64,000 bases of DNA from contig JAJGRE010000002.1 of assembly GCA_021083345.1 (NCBI GenBank), positions 1 to 64,000 of the forward strand, read 5' to 3'. Source of the stretch: Calditrichales bacterium MX18-03 (GTDB lineage Bacteria; Bacillota; Clostridia; Lutisporales; Lutisporaceae). Under the pieces are notes generated by a model that saw only the letters and a program-made list of their open reading frames with translations, was not told the DNA's origin and made no database searches. A program made the position numbers and the translations under genes. How positions within the stretch are numbered: position 1 is the stretch's first letter; every line of letters begins with the position of its first letter. Shown piece by piece: positions 4,488-34,093 of this stretch.

Positions 4488-4834
4488 TGGTGGAGGCGAG
4501 GGGAATCGAACCCCTGTCCGAAAGCATCTTGGTCAGAACCTCTCCGAGCGCAGCTTTTGTTTTAACATTCCCTCTACCGCACGCCCAAAAGCAGGCTTAC
4601 GGCTTCAGTAGCTTCATTTGTCATCCTTATCGCAAAGCTTAGATAAGTGACGTGCCCCGCTAAATGACGCCCAATCCCAAGGTGCGGGAACCCCGGGTTG
4701 AACGAGCAGCCTTAGGCTGCTAACGCGTAATTTTCGTTAGCGTTTAAATTAATTTTCCAGCTTTTTATGGTGCCTCTGGGACCACCGCTCGCTATTCCGG
4801 CCTCAACTACCCCCGTCGAAACCTTTACGCCCCC
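4488..4834 (-). ncRNA. ssrA: Transfer-messenger RNA (tmRNA)
   Basis: The RNA tags and releases proteins from stalled ribosomes together with SmpB. The 5' end GGGGGCG (from 4834) pairs with CGCCTCC near the 3' end to form the tRNA-like acceptor stem. The T-arm is GGGGTTCGATTCCCC, and CCA is encoded at 4490-4488. The 5' region carries the family motif around GGTTTCGACGGGGG. The tag reading frame starts at GCT 4741 and ends at TAA 4712, giving ANENYALAA, a normal tag ending in ALAA. Length is 347 nt. It follows smpB directly and ends in a strong terminator. Confidence 0.96.
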
Positions 4835-4859: not shown

Positions 4860-5324
4860 TTAATACTCCTTGGATCTGAACTGCCTCTCGATTTCGCGTT
4901 TCGCATCGCGTTCTGCAATGTCGTGGCGCTTGTCGTGGAGCAGCTTGCCTTTGGCTACGGCCAGTTCGACCTTAACCAGGCTGCCTTTCAGATACACCGA
5001 AAGCGGTATTAAGGTGTAACCTTTCTGCTGTACATATCCGATCAGCTTGTTGATCTCATACTTGTGCAGCAAAAGCTTCCTGTTCCGCATCGGGTCCTTG
5101 TTGAAAATATTGCCCTTCTCGTAAGGGCTGATATGCATGTTGTGAACCAAAACCTCACCCTTGCTGACTTCTGCATAACTGTCTTTCAGGTTGACGCTGC
5201 CCAGCCGGATGGATTTGACCTCGGTGCCTGAAAGGGCAATGCCGGCCTCAAAAGCTGTCTCGATAAAATAGTCATGCCTGGCTTTTTTATTTTGTGCAAT
5301 TGTCTTGATCGTGTCCTTGCCCAT
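4860..5324 (-). CDS. smpB: SsrA-binding protein SmpB
   Basis: Binds the tRNA-like part of tmRNA and delivers it to stalled ribosomes. The protein has the family hallmarks: [10 protein letters not shown] near the N-terminus, [14 protein letters not shown], and a basic C-terminal tail with [11 protein letters not shown]. The start is placed at ATG 5324 with GGGTGAGA upstream, giving 154 residues; a TTG at 5342 would add six residues and is less likely. ssrA starts 26 bp after the stop codon. A consensus-like promoter lies at 5397-5424, so smpB and ssrA can be transcribed apart from rnr. Confidence 0.96.
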
Positions 5325-5396
5325 CGTTCTCACCCGGTCCAAAACCTGTCATCAATCTATGCTTTTCTGGATGTCTCATCCAAAGCACGTATCTAT

Positions 5397-5424
5397 ATTA
5401 TATCATCTGGCGAAACGGTGTCAA
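5397..5424 (-). promoter_or_regulatory. SigA-type promoter of smpB
   Basis: The -35 TTGACA (5424-5419) and -10 TATAAT (5402-5397) are both perfect consensus with a 16-bp spacer. They sit about 70 bp before the smpB start. Confidence 0.85.
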
Positions 5425-5436
5425 CTTACATTGATC

Positions 5437-5496
5437 AAAAAGGGACATACCTTATCGTAATAGGAATACTTCCCGCTCGAGCAAGGTGTGTCTCTT
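5437..5496 (+). repeat. Copy 1 of a structured repeat of about 60 bp
   Basis: The outer arms GGGACATACCTT (5442-5453) and AAGGTGTGTCTC (5483-5494) form a 12-bp stem with wobble pairs, and the loop region contains GCTCGAGC. A second copy with the same layout lies at 32270-32331 in the opposite orientation. On the minus strand the stem is followed by TTTTT, so this copy could stop rnr transcription before the smpB promoter. The rest of the 5343-5661 intergenic stretch holds the smpB promoter and a possible rnr terminator, nothing else recognised. Confidence 0.75.
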
Positions 5497-5595
5497 AACA
5501 TTATATCTTGAAACCATTTGTCATCACAATGTCAATAAAGCGTAATACAAATGAGAAATGCATCTGCTTGAAATGCTTTCCAATTCAGCCACACG

Positions 5596-5661: not shown

Positions 5662-7803
5662 TCAGACCAATATAAAATCGATAGTTTTGCTGCTAATGTC
5701 CACTGCTGCCACTTTGATCCTGACCGTATCGCCGATCCGGAAGGTCCTCCGTGTCCGCTCCCCGATCAGAATATGATGCGCTTCATCATACATATAGTAG
5801 TCATCCTCCAGGTTGCTGATATGAACGAGCCCTTCAATGGTGTTCTCCAATTCGATAAACATACCGAAGGAGGTCACGTTGGAAATGATTCCGTCGTATT
5901 CTTCGCCTACCCGCTCCTTCATGTATTCTGCCTTCTTCAGATCCTCCACCGAGCGCTCCGCTTCATCTGCAGCCCGCTCCCGAAGTGAGGACTGCTCAGC
6001 AATTCCCTCAATCCTGGCTGCCAGCAGGCTGAGCCTTTTTTCATTCAGCTTGCCGTGGATATCTTCCTTGATGATCCGGTGAATCATCAGGTCCGGATAC
6101 CGGCGTATAGGAGAAGTAAAATGACAATAGTATTTTGCTGCCAGTCCGAAATGTCCGAGACTGTTGCTTGTATACCGGGCTTTTTTGAGAGAGCGCAGCA
6201 TCAGTGTGTTGATAATGCGTTCCTCGCGGGTGCCTTTGACTTGGTCGGTCAGTTGCTGTAGCGCTTTCGGATGGATTTCCGCTATTCCTTTCAGGTGATA
6301 GCCAAAGTTATGAATGAACTCGTTGAATGCCTCAAGCTTCTCGGGGTTCGGGTCTTCGTGGACACGGTATACAAAAGGAATGTCCTTCCAGTACATATGC
6401 TCTGCGATCGTTTCATTGCAGACCAGCATGAATTCCTCTATTATCTGCTCGGATATGCCTCGTTCATAGGGTCGGATGTCGATAGGCTTTCCCTTTTCAT
6501 CCAGATAAATTTTAGTCTCATCAAATTCAAACTCAATGCTTCCTCTTGCACGCCGCCTGTTGTTCAGGATCTGCATCAGCTTATGCATGGCCTCGAAGGT
6601 CGGTATCAGGTCCGCATACCGCTCCATGGTCTCCGGCTCCCTGTCCGTCAGTATCTTGTTGACGTTCTTATAGGTCATCCTTTCCTGGGTCTTGATGACG
6701 CTTTCATAGATTTCATAACGGGTAACCTTGCCCTTCTTATCGATCTCCATGTCGCAGCTCAATGTAAGCCTCTCGATCTGAGGATTCAAGCTGCAGATAC
6801 CGTTTGAAAGCCGTCTGGGCAGCATCGGTATGACCCGGTCCACCAGGTAGACGCTGGTTCCCCGCTTTAAGGCTTCCTTGTCCAAGGGGCTGTTCTCATT
6901 GACATAATGGCTGACATCGGCAATATGTACACCCAGCAGATAATTGCCGTTAGGCAGCTGCTCCAGAGAAACCGCGTCATCCAGATCCTTTGCATCATCC
7001 CCGTCAATGGTTACAATGATTTTCCCACGAAGATCCCTGCGTCTGGGAATTTCCTCTTCCCTGACTGTCTCCGGGATTTTCTCGGCCTGCTCTTCCACCT
7101 CCTCGGGGAATTCCTCCGGCAGATTGTGTCCTCTGATAATGGAGATAATGTCCGTCCCCACATCATCTTTATGCCCCAGGATCTCCGTTATGACACCTTC
7201 GGGATTCCTTCTGCCTTCCGGCCATTTGGTGATTTCCACAACCACCTTTTGTCCTGTCCTGGCGCTGTTGGCTTCGGATTTCGAGATGAAAATATCCTGA
7301 TAGATCCTGGGATCGTCCGGCACCACAAAGCCAAAGCTTTTGTTGCTTTCATAGGTTCCCACGATCTTCTCATTAGCTCGCTTCAATATGCGGATGACTT
7401 CTCCTTCGCACTTCTTGCTGCCCAATTCCCCTGCAGTAACTCTGGCAATGACCCGGTCGTTGTTCATGGCGCCGTTTAAGGCCTCTGCGGGAATAAACAG
7501 GTCCTTGATGGAAGAATTGTCCGGTATAAGAAAACCAAAGCCTTTTTTGTTGCCTTGTATCCTTCCGGGCACCAGGTTCATCTTTTCGGTTAGTCCGTAT
7601 TTGTTCTTCTTGGTCAGCAGGATGCTGCCCTCGTTTTCCAGGTGAACCAGGACGCTGTTGAAGGCTTCCCGCCGATCTTCCGTAATATCCATGGCTTCCA
7701 TTAATTCCACATAAAGCAGAGGTTTGTACGCGTCAGTCTGCATAAACGCCAGTACTTTGTTCTTCAGCTCGATATCCAAACCAATTTCCAGAATATCATC
7801 CAT
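5662..7803 (-). CDS. rnr: Ribonuclease R
   Basis: 3'-5' exoribonuclease of the RNB family that degrades structured RNA and assists trans-translation. The order is an N-terminal helical region, cold-shock-like OB folds, and the RNB catalytic domain with GDDAKDLDDAV near residues 265-280 supplying the metal-binding aspartates. A C-terminal S1 domain follows (about 632-713), with the motif VTSFGMFIELENTIEGLVH. The start is set at ATG 7803 with GAGGTGT upstream, giving 713 residues; the open frame continues farther upstream but overlaps the hydrolase gene. The basic tail present in some RNase R proteins is short or absent. The upstream hydrolase gene ends one base before this start, so the two are probably co-translated. 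Confidence 0.96.
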   Translation of the reverse strand: MDDILEIGLDIELKNKVLAFMQTDAYKPLLYVELMEAMDITEDRREAFNSVLVHLENEGSILLTKKNKYGLTEKMNLVPGRIQGNKKGFGFLIPDNSSIKDLFIPAEALNGAMNNDRVIARVTAGELGSKKCEGEVIRILKRANEKIVGTYESNKSFGFVVPDDPRIYQDIFISKSEANSARTGQKVVVEITKWPEGRRNPEGVITEILGHKDDVGTDIISIIRGHNLPEEFPEEVEEQAEKIPETVREEEIPRRRDLRGKIIVTIDGDDAKDLDDAVSLEQLPNGNYLLGVHIADVSHYVNENSPLDKEALKRGTSVYLVDRVIPMLPRRLSNGICSLNPQIERLTLSCDMEIDKKGKVTRYEIYESVIKTQERMTYKNVNKILTDREPETMERYADLIPTFEAMHKLMQILNNRRRARGSIEFEFDETKIYLDEKGKPIDIRPYERGISEQIIEEFMLVCNETIAEHMYWKDIPFVYRVHEDPNPEKLEAFNEFIHNFGYHLKGIAEIHPKALQQLTDQVKGTREERIINTLMLRSLKKARYTSNSLGHFGLAAKYYCHFTSPIRRYPDLMIHRIIKEDIHGKLNEKRLSLLAARIEGIAEQSSLRERAADEAERSVEDLKKAEYMKERVGEEYDGIISNVTSFGMFIELENTIEGLVHISNLEDDYYMYDEAHHILIGERTRRTFRIGDTVRIKVAAVDISSKTIDFILV

Positions 7804-7804
7804 T

Positions 7805-8632
7805 TTATACACACCTCGTTTCCATCGCATTAAGTCCTTCATTCCTGAACCGGGATTTGCTGCGGATAAATCCGTATATTTCCTCAAAAACCTGTTCTTT
7901 CTCGCAATCACAGGTGATAATATGTCCGCTGTTATGTAAATGAATGATGCTTTTATCCTTGGAGCCGATCCTATTGTATATGATGTTGCCGCTCACGGGA
8001 TTGACGGTACCGTCTCCATAAGACTGTATGATGAGGATGGGCTTCTCTATTTTACCCAAATGGTACTTCACGTAACGGATCAGCTTGAAAAGGCAGTGAA
8101 TGCATCTGACAGGGGTCCTGTCATAGCCTATAATAAAGGGGTCCTTATGCTTTCGGGGGTTTTTCTCTATGTAATCCTTGAAGAATTTCAGGACAAAGGC
8201 ATAATAGGCCTGCTTGTTCAGGATCCTAATTGGTGTGGAGAGGCAGACAATGCCCCTGACATCATAGCTGCGAGCCAGATATAAGGATAACAGGCCGCCC
8301 ATTGACAAGCCAACTGAAAAAACCTCATCGCATTCCCGCTTCAGTTCCTTGTAGCCCTCTACGGCAGAAGCAATCCAATCCCTTTGGGTTGTTCTTCTCA
8401 TATCCTCCGGACTGGTCCCGTGCCCCTTCAGCAGCACGGCCTTAACGGTAAAACCCTTATCTCTCAAATAATCGCCCAAGTATCTCATTTCAGCCGGAGT
8501 ACCTGTGAAGCCGTGTACCAGCAGGATGCCCGTCTTGCTGCCCTTATAATAAAAGGGCTGCGTCAGACCTTCGTCTATCTGCTCCTGGCACATTGCCGCC
8601 ATTTCATTCGCAGCTGTGTTTCTGTCAAGCAA
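7805..8632 (-). CDS. Alpha/beta hydrolase, carboxylesterase/monoacylglycerol lipase-like (YvaK type)
   Basis: Serine hydrolase likely acting on short-chain or monoacyl esters in the cytoplasm. LLVHGFTGTPAEMRYLG is the oxyanion-hole region, GLSMGG holds the nucleophile serine, DGTVNP a likely acid, and the SGHI segment the histidine. Its place directly before rnr matches yvaK in the secG-yvaK-rnr-smpB cluster of Bacillus. The start is uncertain: TTG 8632 lies only three bases after AAGGAGG, while the next in-frame ATG is at 8602. It ends one base before rnr. Between 8633 and 8875 there is no gene; that stretch holds the DUF1294 terminator and probably a promoter for this operon. Confidence 0.88.
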   Translation of the reverse strand: MLDRNTAANEMAAMCQEQIDEGLTQPFYYKGSKTGILLVHGFTGTPAEMRYLGDYLRDKGFTVKAVLLKGHGTSPEDMRRTTQRDWIASAVEGYKELKRECDEVFSVGLSMGGLLSLYLARSYDVRGIVCLSTPIRILNKQAYYAFVLKFFKDYIEKNPRKHKDPFIIGYDRTPVRCIHCLFKLIRYVKYHLGKIEKPILIIQSYGDGTVNPVSGNIIYNRIGSKDKSIIHLHNSGHIITCDCEKEQVFEEIYGFIRSKSRFRNEGLNAMETRCV

Positions 8633-28634: not shown

Positions 28635-29939
28635 CTATTTATCAAATACAGTCTGTCCGTGTACTTCTGTCTGTAGGGCTTTCAGTGCCTTGAGAACGAT
28701 ATTCCTTCTGATGACCTTTTCTTCCGCAGGTGATTTTGAAGGGTTTCCAAGCGGATACGGAATCGCTATTGCCGGAACGATCCTGTTGGCGCCTACCGTC
28801 AATGAAATCGGAACGACTGTACAAATATGCACAACAGGAATGCCGACTCTCTCAATCTCTTTTACCATCGTTGCACCGCAACGCGTACAAGTACCTCAGG
28901 TCGAGGTAAGTATAACCGCCTGCACGCCATCGGCAAGCAGCTCCTGTGCGAAGGTTGCAGCAAACTTCTTGGAGTTTGCGACGGAGGTTCCGTTACCGGT
29001 GGTGGTATAGAAATAGCGGTGAAGCTTTCCGATAACGCCTTCCTTTTCCAGGTCTCTCAATACATCTACAGGCAGTACTCTGTCGGAATCCTGGTTGGCA
29101 TAGACCGGGTCATAGCCGCCGTGAGCGGTCTCATAGGTCTCTGCTGTCAGGTCCATAATGCCTTCGATGTCATATTTCCCGTATTTGGATGCACTGGAGG
29201 ATTCGATCCTGTCCGGGTTGCCTTTCGGTACGATACCACCTGAGGTAACCAGCGCGATCTTGGCTTTAGTCAGGTCCAGGACCGGGGGATTTGGTGCCAC
29301 TCTATCAAAGTCCGGCATCGGATATTCCGTTTCGAAGGCCTCTCCCTTGAGCTTGGCTAAAAGCATGTTGACAGCTCTCTTAGAGCCTCTCTCTGCTCTG
29401 AAAATATTCTTTCTTACACCTCTTGCAATGTAACCCTCTTCCGCAGGTGCTCCCAGGGTTTCATTGGCAGCCAGCTTCAGGGCCAGCTTTGCCATTGCAG
29501 GGACTGCAGTTCTCATGCCTGTCGCAGCATTGGCTGTCTCAACAATGTACAGCTCTTTTTTGAACATATCTGCCCCAGGATTTTCAATATACATGCCTGT
29601 CAGTACAGGGATATTGAGCTTATCCTTAACCGCTTTGCATATGCTTCCGCAAGCAACGCCATATCGGCCTGCATTAAAAGCCGGTCCGGCTATGAATAGA
29701 TCCGGATTGTGCTTTTCGATCATACCGATGATTTCAGCTGTGGCTGCATCAATATTCTCGTTGAAATAGGAGTCCCCGCAAATTACGGTAGCTACTATTT
29801 CCGCATTGGCACCCAAGGCTGCTTTCAACGCCATACCGGGTCCGACAACGCCTTCCTTCAGCTCCGGTTTGATATCGGCTTTTTCTTCACCGCCTATACC
29901 GCCGTAAAACTGATTTATATAATGTACAACTCTTATCAT
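28635..29939 (-). CDS. grdB: Glycine reductase complex selenoprotein B, gamma subunit (UGA read as selenocysteine)
   Basis: Substrate-specific selenoprotein that binds glycine through a Schiff base with the GrdE pyruvoyl group and transfers the carboxymethyl group to GrdA. The frame contains an in-frame TGA at 28898-28896, codon 348, in the context STUGTCTRCG, which is the Sec-x-x-Cys motif of GrdB. Beyond it the frame continues with MVKEIERVGIPVVHICTV to the TAA at 28635. With selenocysteine the protein has 434 residues, the family length. Automatic calling would split it in two. The start is ATG 29939, with GGAGGG about 12 bases upstream. Selenocysteine machinery must be encoded elsewhere. 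Confidence 0.96.
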
Positions 29940-31927: not shown

Positions 31928-32248
31928 TTATATGTTTTCTTTTATCAGGTTCTCAATGGTTTCCGGCGTGCAATTCTCAGCGCCGCTGATTTCCTTGACC
32001 TTTTCGCCATTTTTATAAACGATGAAGGTAGGCAGGCCCAAAACCTTCTGACCAATTGCCAGCCTTCTGTTTTCTGTCGTATTCAGTTTGCAGAACTTCA
32101 TCTGCCCATCATACTTTTCAGCCAACTTGTGTACATCCGGCATCAGGGCCTTGCAGGGCTCACATTTGTCACCCCAGAAGTCAACCATAACTGCACCCTC
32201 AGCCTGAAGCACTTCAGCTTCGAAATTGTCCTTGTTCAGTTCTATCAT
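31928..32248 (-). CDS. trxA: Thioredoxin of the glycine reductase system
   Basis: Delivers electrons to selenoprotein A. The 106-residue thioredoxin fold has active-site cysteines C29 and C32 in WGDKCEPCKALMPDV. This replaces the usual WCGPC and matches thioredoxins encoded with glycine reductases, where Lys-Cys-Glu-Pro-Cys types are known. The start is ATG 32248 behind AAGGAGGTG. The 162-bp spacer to trxB contains copy 2 of a structured repeat. Confidence 0.96.
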   Translation of the reverse strand: MIELNKDNFEAEVLQAEGAVMVDFWGDKCEPCKALMPDVHKLAEKYDGQMKFCKLNTTENRRLAIGQKVLGLPTFIVYKNGEKVKEISGAENCTPETIENLIKENI

Positions 32249-32269
32249 TGTTTCACCTCCTTACAATGT

Positions 32270-32331
32270 AAAAGGACACACCTTGCTCGAGTAATGGGTA
32301 TTCCTTCTATGATAAGGAATGTCCCTTTTTG
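32270..32331 (-). repeat. Copy 2 of a structured repeat of about 60 bp
   Basis: Read on the minus strand it matches 5437-5496 closely: AAAAAGGGACAT at the start, CCTTATC and AGGAATAC in the middle, and CTCGAGCAAGGTGTGTC at the end. The outer arms form a stem, and ATTCCTT/AAGGAAT forms an inner hairpin. It sits between trxB and trxA inside the grd operon, just before the trxA ribosome binding site. Confidence 0.75.
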
Positions 32332-32410
32332 ATTTATGAGTTACGGGGCACAGGTTACAAGTACTTAGCTGCGCTCCGGAGTCTTTTTTAACTTCACGAA
32401 ACACCGGTAG

Positions 32411-33859: not shown

Positions 33860-34062
33860 CTTCAACCTGAGATATTCTTCATCCGACAGGAATGAACTCA
33901 CTGCTCATCCTATTGGAGACTTGATCCTTCGGTGCTTACGCTTTCCAGAGGTTTGTCCGGTTAACGGTCCTTCTGCCTGAGAGCTTCGCTATATAGCTAT
34001 TCATAAAGCTTACTCCTTCGGCGCCCTTTACGCAATGTAAAGAATCTCTCCCGATTACCATC
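33860..34062 (-). ncRNA. Tandem glycine riboswitch (two aptamers)
   Basis: Leader RNA that binds glycine. On the minus strand the first aptamer (about 34060-33965) has GGGAGAG, GCGCCGAAGGAGTAA and CTCTCAGGCA, and the second (about 33955-33860) has AGTCTCC, CACCGAAGGATCAAG and ATCTCAGG. GAAGGAGNAA and CTCTCAGG are hallmark glycine-aptamer sequences. The two aptamers are joined by a short linker with GGACAAAC. A terminator follows at once. The control of the grd operon by its own substrate is consistent with published glycine riboswitches. Confidence 0.94.
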
Positions 34063-34093
34063 ATCCAACACCATATATAATTTCTATACTTTT

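Follow-up and report, generated by a model that had tools for sequence, protein, structure and literature searches.

A dispersed palindromic element with RAYT-like ends that lies directly before Shine-Dalgarno sites in some Clostridia

A palindromic element is dispersed through the genome of Calditrichales bacterium MX18-03 (hereafter the host), and 18 of its 24 near-full copies there end directly before a Shine-Dalgarno (SD) site. In the reading that we prefer, and to which we give about an even chance, the element is a non-autonomous RAYT-type palindrome, devoid of a transposase gene of its own, that was targeted to or kept at positions before SD sites in some lineages. Two copies lie in the window, which is the whole stretch of 64,000 nucleotides that was analysed (Table 1). 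They have opposite orientations, as the preliminary description had stated, match each other at 81% identity (E 2.3e-12 in BLAST within the host genome; subject 5434-5502, query 32265-32340, positions 1-69), and have the core CTCGAGCAAGGTGTGTC in common. The same description placed both copies directly ahead of genes. This applies to copy 2, whose right end is separated from the SD of trxA by 1 nt, with the SD at +10 and the start codon at +24, counted from GTGTCCC. It does not apply to copy 1, where SD tests on both ends revealed no SD at the right end and none near the left end. On the minus strand, copy 1 is situated between the ORF at 5662-7911, earlier read as rnr, and a promoter-like site (5424-5397), downstream of which follows the ORF at 4860-5342 that was earlier read as smpB. 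Rfam families scoring above the gathering score on the minus strand of the window were a tmRNA (4488-4834), a SECIS_4 element (28858-28895), and a glycine riboswitch (33955-34063). On the element itself Rfam gave no match, neither in the window and 20 loci at the gathering score nor in eight loci at E up to 1.

Table 1. Positions of the two element copies and of adjacent features in the window.
Feature	Position	Strand	Basis
Copy 1 of the element (locus L021)	5434..5503	+	BLAST to copy 2 and arm matches
Copy 1, left arm ATCAAAAAGGGACATA	5434..5449	+	1 mismatch to consensus arm
Copy 1, right arm GGTGTGTCTCTTAACATTA	5485..5503	+	2 mismatches to consensus arm
Copy 2 of the element (locus L001), sense toward trxA	32264..32333	-	BLAST, arm patterns
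Copy 2, left arm ATCAAAAAGGGACATT	32318..32333	-	Exact match to consensus arm
Copy 2, right arm GGTGTGTCCTTTTACATTG	32264..32282	-	2 mismatches to consensus arm
Shine-Dalgarno (SD) AAGGAGG, 1 nt past right end of copy 2	32256..32262	-	Read in sequence
TrxA (thioredoxin), 106 aa, gene downstream of copy 2	31928..32248	-	NCBIfam NF047697.1 above cut-off
Promoter-like site TTGACA-16-TATAAT with TG (perfect extended -10)	5397..5424	-	12/12 consensus positions; consensus match only

With copy 2 as query and E values of up to 10 allowed, BLAST found 32 matches in the host genome (G000; 4.69 Mb in 15 contigs). Of these, 24 are near-full copies, each with an E value of 1.7e-7 or lower. The right-arm pattern with up to three mismatches occurs 31 times in the host, compared to a single match for the reversed control pattern, and the left-arm pattern with up to two mismatches also occurs 31 times, compared to two for its reversed control. 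A reading of ten further arm matches added two more short forms and a 25th full copy (L340), which precedes a gene read as dapA-like and whose SD and start codon are, by reading, placed as in the 18 SD-adjacent copies; single arms exist in the genome as well. These numbers rule out chance or a local duplication, which the preliminary description would have accepted had there been only two copies. Its proposal of a dispersed palindromic element of the REP or MITE kind is supported by the genome-wide copies, by the RAYT-like ends, and by relatives that were found in other genomes, mainly in Clostridia.

The core of the element spans approximately 66 nt and has imperfect inverted ends, GGGACAttCCTT and AAGGtgTGTCCC, able to pair into a long outer stem. 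Written by hand from the alignment of the host copies, the consensus in sense direction reads ATCAAAAAGGGACATTCCTTAACGTAAAAGGAATACCTCTTACTCGAGCAAGGTGTGTCCCTTTACATTA and is usually followed by the SD. The short forms in the host (L027, L028, L341, and L345) consist of the left arm ATCAAAAAGGGACATT, exact or with one mismatch, closely joined to an SD; judged from their sequence, they look as if the interior had been deleted between ACATT repeats. The aldehyde dehydrogenase-like genes at L005 and L027 are 99% identical over 1408 bp from the SD onward, and their upstream sequences are otherwise unlike, one carrying the full element and the other a short form. Among the arm-pattern matches in the host, no solo left and right arms were found within 5 kb of each other in the order that an autonomous unit would have.

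In 18/24 host copies, read in sense direction, the SD begins 9-13 nt past GTGTCCC (0-4 nt past the right arm) and the start codon lies 22-27 nt past the same motif. A similar SD test applied to random positions in other loci was positive at 277 of 11,200 positions, or 2.5% per side. Six copies lack an SD to the right. In three of them (L017, L019, and L020) an SD-like site and an ORF are found up to 45 nt to the left; the others are L011, L022, and copy 1 (L021). The closeness to the SD is not due to a lack of room, because 80-398 nt of gap remain upstream of the element in 11 of the 18 SD-adjacent copies. If the copies were placed uniformly within the gap upstream of the SD, such closeness would have a probability of about 1e-20 (log10 P about -20); the calculation covers the 17 copies whose gap was usable (L004 was dropped) and relies on crude, ORF-based gap limits. 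The genes downstream of the host copies are unrelated and do not suggest an evident common pathway. Ten of their products were scanned against NCBIfam: TrxA, a DJ-1 family glyoxalase, SpoIIIAC, an ACT-domain protein, PanB, CysK, and MtnA scored above the cut-off, and TcdA-like, MinD-like, and acylating aldehyde dehydrogenase-like proteins below it. ClpC, ArgS, and others, named by reading, are also encoded downstream of host copies. At the clpC junction the host has, besides the element, a further partial left arm. Five of eight relatives (L262, L264, L265, L267, and L268) have a short gap with an SD at this junction, L261 and L266 have a different and longer upstream sequence, and for L263 the script found no such junction.

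The uniform orientation could also have arisen in another way. On the antisense strand a T run (four or more A before GGGA in sense direction) accompanies the hairpin in 19/24 host copies, and in the terminator scan copy 2 was listed antisense to trxA. If this structure acted as an asymmetric terminator that stops operon transcription, selection might remove copies inserted antisense into operons and leave the sense copies behind. However, such purging accounts for orientation and not for closeness to the SD. Moreover, the scan beside the ORF at 5662-7911 listed another hairpin (5638-5605) and not copy 1, for which the preliminary description had suggested a role as a mobile terminator after rnr, and the elements of gut Clostridia described below keep the same sense orientation although their antisense strand has no T run. 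We thus regard the terminator explanation as improbable.

Related elements occur in other genomes of the class. A covariance-model search, in which at most 13 candidates per genome were scored under strict filters, gave matches with an E value of 1e-4 or lower in 34 genomes out of 391 from the class, including the host and five members of its family. When the host consensus served as a BLAST query against 61 genomes, only the host matched, and in light of the covariance-model matches, five other members of the host's family among them, BLAST was judged too insensitive. The preference for SD sites is not shared by all relatives. When one SD test was applied to the host and to five other genomes with covariance-model matches (G314, G429, G193, G217, and G016), an SD was found within 20 nt of the right arm in 3 of the 46 copies from these genomes as opposed to 18/24 in the host (Fisher p 5e-9). 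Extending the distance on the right to 45 nt gave 5/46 versus 18/24, and the left side within 45 nt gave 4/46 versus 3/24; in a slightly different first test, the SD was to the right of four and to the left of three of the 46 copies. Several of these 46 copies form tandem arrays, and arrays of two or three copies of the same element family are also found at L311, L314, and L088 in other genomes. Thus, SD placement is a trait of some lineages and not of the whole family. Viral carriage was rejected on the basis of one pattern scan of viral contigs, which gave no matches.

A pattern scan of named genomes retrieved at least 112 stretches, which by title are mostly from Clostridia or other Bacillota; a few other taxa, for example Thermodesulfatator, are among the stretches listed, and L050, L073, and L082 probably are unrelated palindromes. 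Among the matches listed, 132 in at least 112 stretches with palindromes counted on both strands, an SD and an ORF lie to the right of 48 and to the left of 10. A group of gut Clostridia with small genomes carries a longer element, conserved from about GGTCA to ACATTAA, of which 93 copies were found in 43 fetched stretches of 12 genomes. Since these stretches were selected via BLAST hits of a consensus, the counts describe such hits and not whole genomes, and related genomes share sites. An SD and a start codon follow 79/93 copies, the SD being located -1 to +8 nt relative to the end of the profile. The 14 copies without an SD call comprise six that by reading open a tandem pair, and others that include copies with a weaker SD. 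According to a tally of N-termini, 68 of the 79 SD-adjacent copies precede ribosomal-protein genes of 17 kinds, 16 of which were named by NCBIfam and one (L36) by reading. In five ribosomal-protein clusters all 43 counted copies are oriented with the operon, after removal of the reverse-strand shadows of the palindromes.

Filled and empty sites coexist in five related gut genomes, which were taken as close because their ribosomal proteins are near-identical. The S17-L14 and L22-S3 junctions are each filled in three and empty in two of them, the L29-S17 junction is filled in four and empty in one, and the L24-L5 junction is empty in all five. Different genomes carry differing subfamilies of the element at one and the same junction, and this indicates replacement, conversion, or repeated insertion. 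By eye, no target-site duplication such as a MITE of a DDE transposon would leave was recognised at the filled and empty gut junctions, whose flanks have diverged. An insertion that duplicates the SD was considered and rejected, as by eye the SD-like stretch on the left is the same whatever the target; being alike at every target, it was taken as a part of the element. A small upstream ORF within the gut element was likewise discarded, because inspection by eye found it not to be conserved.

The recurrence of different subfamilies at the same ribosomal-protein junction is what repeated hits on one target would give. Together with the distance of 0-4 nt from the SD in a host genome that offers ample room upstream, it is compatible with a purely selfish RAYT-type repeat without any host function, whose transposase in some lineages would prefer sites beside an SD (AAGGAGG or its complement). 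Yet the distance to the SD is not fixed and varies by several nt. In addition, relatives of the family are mostly located away from SD sites, so that the site preference of the transposase would have had to change. On balance, this purely selfish explanation appears rather unlikely, even if it deserves serious consideration.

Compensatory changes lend some support to the outer stem. For 88 gut copies, taken from 105 candidates after omission of 17 rows (mostly truncated, tandem-first, or low-scoring, and one near-duplicate), 68 double-changed cells were counted, compared to 25.5+-3.6 in shuffled alignments and at most 16 with the stem slid; the stem was entered by hand, which favours it in this test. 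In a second alignment, with 40 hand-picked copies of the host and relatives, 96.9% of the stem cells pair and 16 cells are double-changed, versus 6.0+-1.7 shuffled and at most 5 slid. Stem cells are not independent events, however, and few events may underlie the covariation, because 12 of these 16 cells sit on one pair. Consistently, the number of pairs with double changes is near the shuffled level (7 versus 6.2 for the 88 gut copies, 3 versus 1.8 for the 40 copies), and the number of pair types is at or near it (24 versus 22.9 and 10 versus 10.9, respectively). RNAalifold recovered only 6 pairs from the gut alignment, in which MAFFT had split the right arm. The covariation does not discriminate against a selfish repeat, because a transposase substrate would need the stem too. 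The internal hairpin ATTCCTT/AAGGAAT of the preliminary description can be drawn, but the 40 aligned copies show no covariation that would mark it as a conserved fold. Long-range pairing of GGTCA with TGACC was rejected for the gut copies: 79.8% of its cells are paired and 11 are double-changed, but slid versions reach 13.

In predicted folds the SD tends to be more open next to the native element than next to shuffled elements. The mean unpaired probability of the SD in the host is 0.51 compared to 0.36 (n=18, Wilcoxon p 0.014), and in the gut genomes 0.69 compared to 0.60 (n=61, p 0.0009, with copies that are not independent). Three of the 18 host copies fall below the shuffled level, namely L008, L012, and copy 2 of the window (L001), where the value is 0.24 native versus 0.69 shuffled. 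The folding predictions thus modestly support a hairpin that would keep the SD open.

The ends of the element point to transposases of the Y1 type. The REP-associated transposase that the preliminary description suggested looking for did not turn up in the host, whose genome has no PF01797 match. Such a match is present in 39/43 element-bearing genomes taken from among the pattern-scan matches listed; this co-occurrence alone is weak, because 41/61 genomes of the set of relatives, in which the host is included, carry Y1 genes anyway. Inverted arms of at least 12 nt that start with GGG flank 14/20 Y1 loci of RAYT-like length (197-341 aa; ten shorter ones of the 30 loci, L158-L167, were left out), compared to 1/145 control ORFs, and in 12 of these 14 the arm starts with GGGGAC[AG] or GGGAC[AG]. 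At one such locus (L184 in genome G066), the left arm GGGACATACCTTAAA equals the left arm of an element in the same genome (L067) over 15 nt. The right arm GGTATGTCCC, which lies inside the 3' end of the Y1 ORF, is one base off the GGTGTGTCCC of the elements, and the HVH and Y---NP motifs are readable in the encoded protein. In genome G069, the ends GGGACATATCTT and AAGATGTGTCC of a Y1 gene resemble an element of the same genome (L057:5952-6036); GGGACATATCTTC and GAAGATGTGTCC lie near the gene, and that element has GGGGACATATCTT and AAAGATGTGTCC. Seven Y1 proteins searched against Pfam at E up to 0.01 all matched Y1_Tnp and no HTH domain; C-terminal HTH domains are mentioned for subclass 2.1 in excerpts from PMC6006769. 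Nine of the RAYT-length Y1 genes (L172, L173, L177, L178, L180, L181, L182, L184, and L186) are located just upstream of a radA-like gene, and the two radA-like genes scanned were both named DNA repair protein RadA. This neighbourhood, shared by nine loci, suggests vertical inheritance of the Y1 gene. As far as sequence comparison can tell, the element apparently is related to the inverted ends of RAYT/TIRYT transposase units.

Alternatively, the element might be a true cis-regulatory RNA, such as a ribosomal-protein-binding leader or a riboswitch, that never was mobile. The prevalence of ribosomal-protein genes after the SD-adjacent gut copies, the changes on both sides of the stem, and the position directly 5' of the SD would be in line with such a function. 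This origin is nevertheless very improbable in view of the 24-25 similar copies in one genome, the host genes downstream that lack an evident common pathway, the presence or absence at orthologous junctions, the tandem arrays and non-SD copies in other genomes, the near-matching ends around a transposase gene, and the absence of an Rfam match.

If the element is a RAYT-type palindrome, its ends GGGACAttCCTT and AAGGtgTGTCCC would be the counterparts of the inverted termini of IS200-like RAYT/TIRYT units, and it may have been spread in trans by a Y1 (HUH) transposase that the host has since lost. In the SD-placing lineages, it would have been targeted to, or selectively kept at, the gap before the SD. 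There, the hairpin in the transcript would tend to leave the SD free and might thereby insulate or stabilise the downstream cistron. A bolder and more tentative proposal, which we consider possible though somewhat doubtful, is that repeats of the RAYT group 1 type serve as a portable part of 5' leaders that was delivered or retained in sense direction before the SD in several clostridial lineages. In the gut genomes, they might then represent a changing set of structured leaders before at least 17 different ribosomal-protein genes and co-ordinate or insulate translation. If true, a mobile element that repeatedly, and in a single orientation, came to lie directly before ribosome-binding sites would be a case of transposon-derived rewiring of bacterial translation, and the filled and empty alleles in related genomes offer a ready comparison.

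Several known systems resemble the element in part. In GTAG/CGTC-tagged REP sequences, a palindrome of 20-40 bp carries the tag at one of its ends. Like REPs and REPINs, the element is short, palindromic, dispersed, intergenic, and tied to Y1 transposases in general; inspection of the 24 aligned copies by eye showed neither a GTAG nor a CGTC tag at their ends, and their core measures about 66 nt. In Firmicutes, ribosomal-protein genes can be preceded by structured leader RNAs. The element differs from them in being repeated at many genes, in its occurrence inside operons, and in having no Rfam counterpart. A shared pathway of the downstream genes, as is typical of riboswitches and leaders, is not apparent in the host, and the gut genes are mostly those of ribosomal proteins.

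Published REPs are, according to excerpts from PMC3733652, mostly located 3' of genes, and this ordinary placement is not supported for the element, as 18/24 host copies lie directly 5' of an SD. A close likeness is to the TIRs that flank RAYT genes with the motif GGGGWSAS and form TIRtrons (Di Nocera et al., 2013, PMC3733652, in part). As in TIRtrons, inverted ends flank an IS200-like Y1 gene in G066, where they nearly match those of an element, and in G069, where they are alike; none was found in the host. Like TIRs in the same excerpts, the element occurs as single, dimeric, and clustered copies. Compared to this motif, which PMC6006769 quotes as well, GGGGACAT of many relatives agrees at 7/8 and AGGGACAT of most host copies at 6/8 positions; the eighth position is a T in the element and lies outside the consensus as given there. 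The element further differs in its position 5' of the SD, in a single orientation, in the host and gut genomes, and in the lack of a PF01797 match in the host. Excerpts from PMC6006769 assign 20/26 TIRtron-type proteins to TnpA_REP subclass 2.1, which equals RAYT group 1, and describe this second largest subclass as one beside whose genes no REP-like sequences were found. If the palindromes are substrates of subclass 2.1, this lack of known REP-like neighbours becomes testable. With respect to position, a parallel is provided by the TAACTGA repeats of marine Beggiatoaceae, which excerpts from PMC4679880 place within several nt upstream of start codons, ribosomal-protein operons included, and for which a post-transcriptional role was proposed there. 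Those repeats are heptamer direct repeats, whereas the element is a palindrome with RAYT-like ends. Searches of the open-licence text of PubMed Central brought up no account of repeats of this type before SD sites in Clostridia. As a TIR/REP repeat of a Y1 transposase the element is of a known kind, and its placement before SD sites and in ribosomal-protein operons appears to be new.
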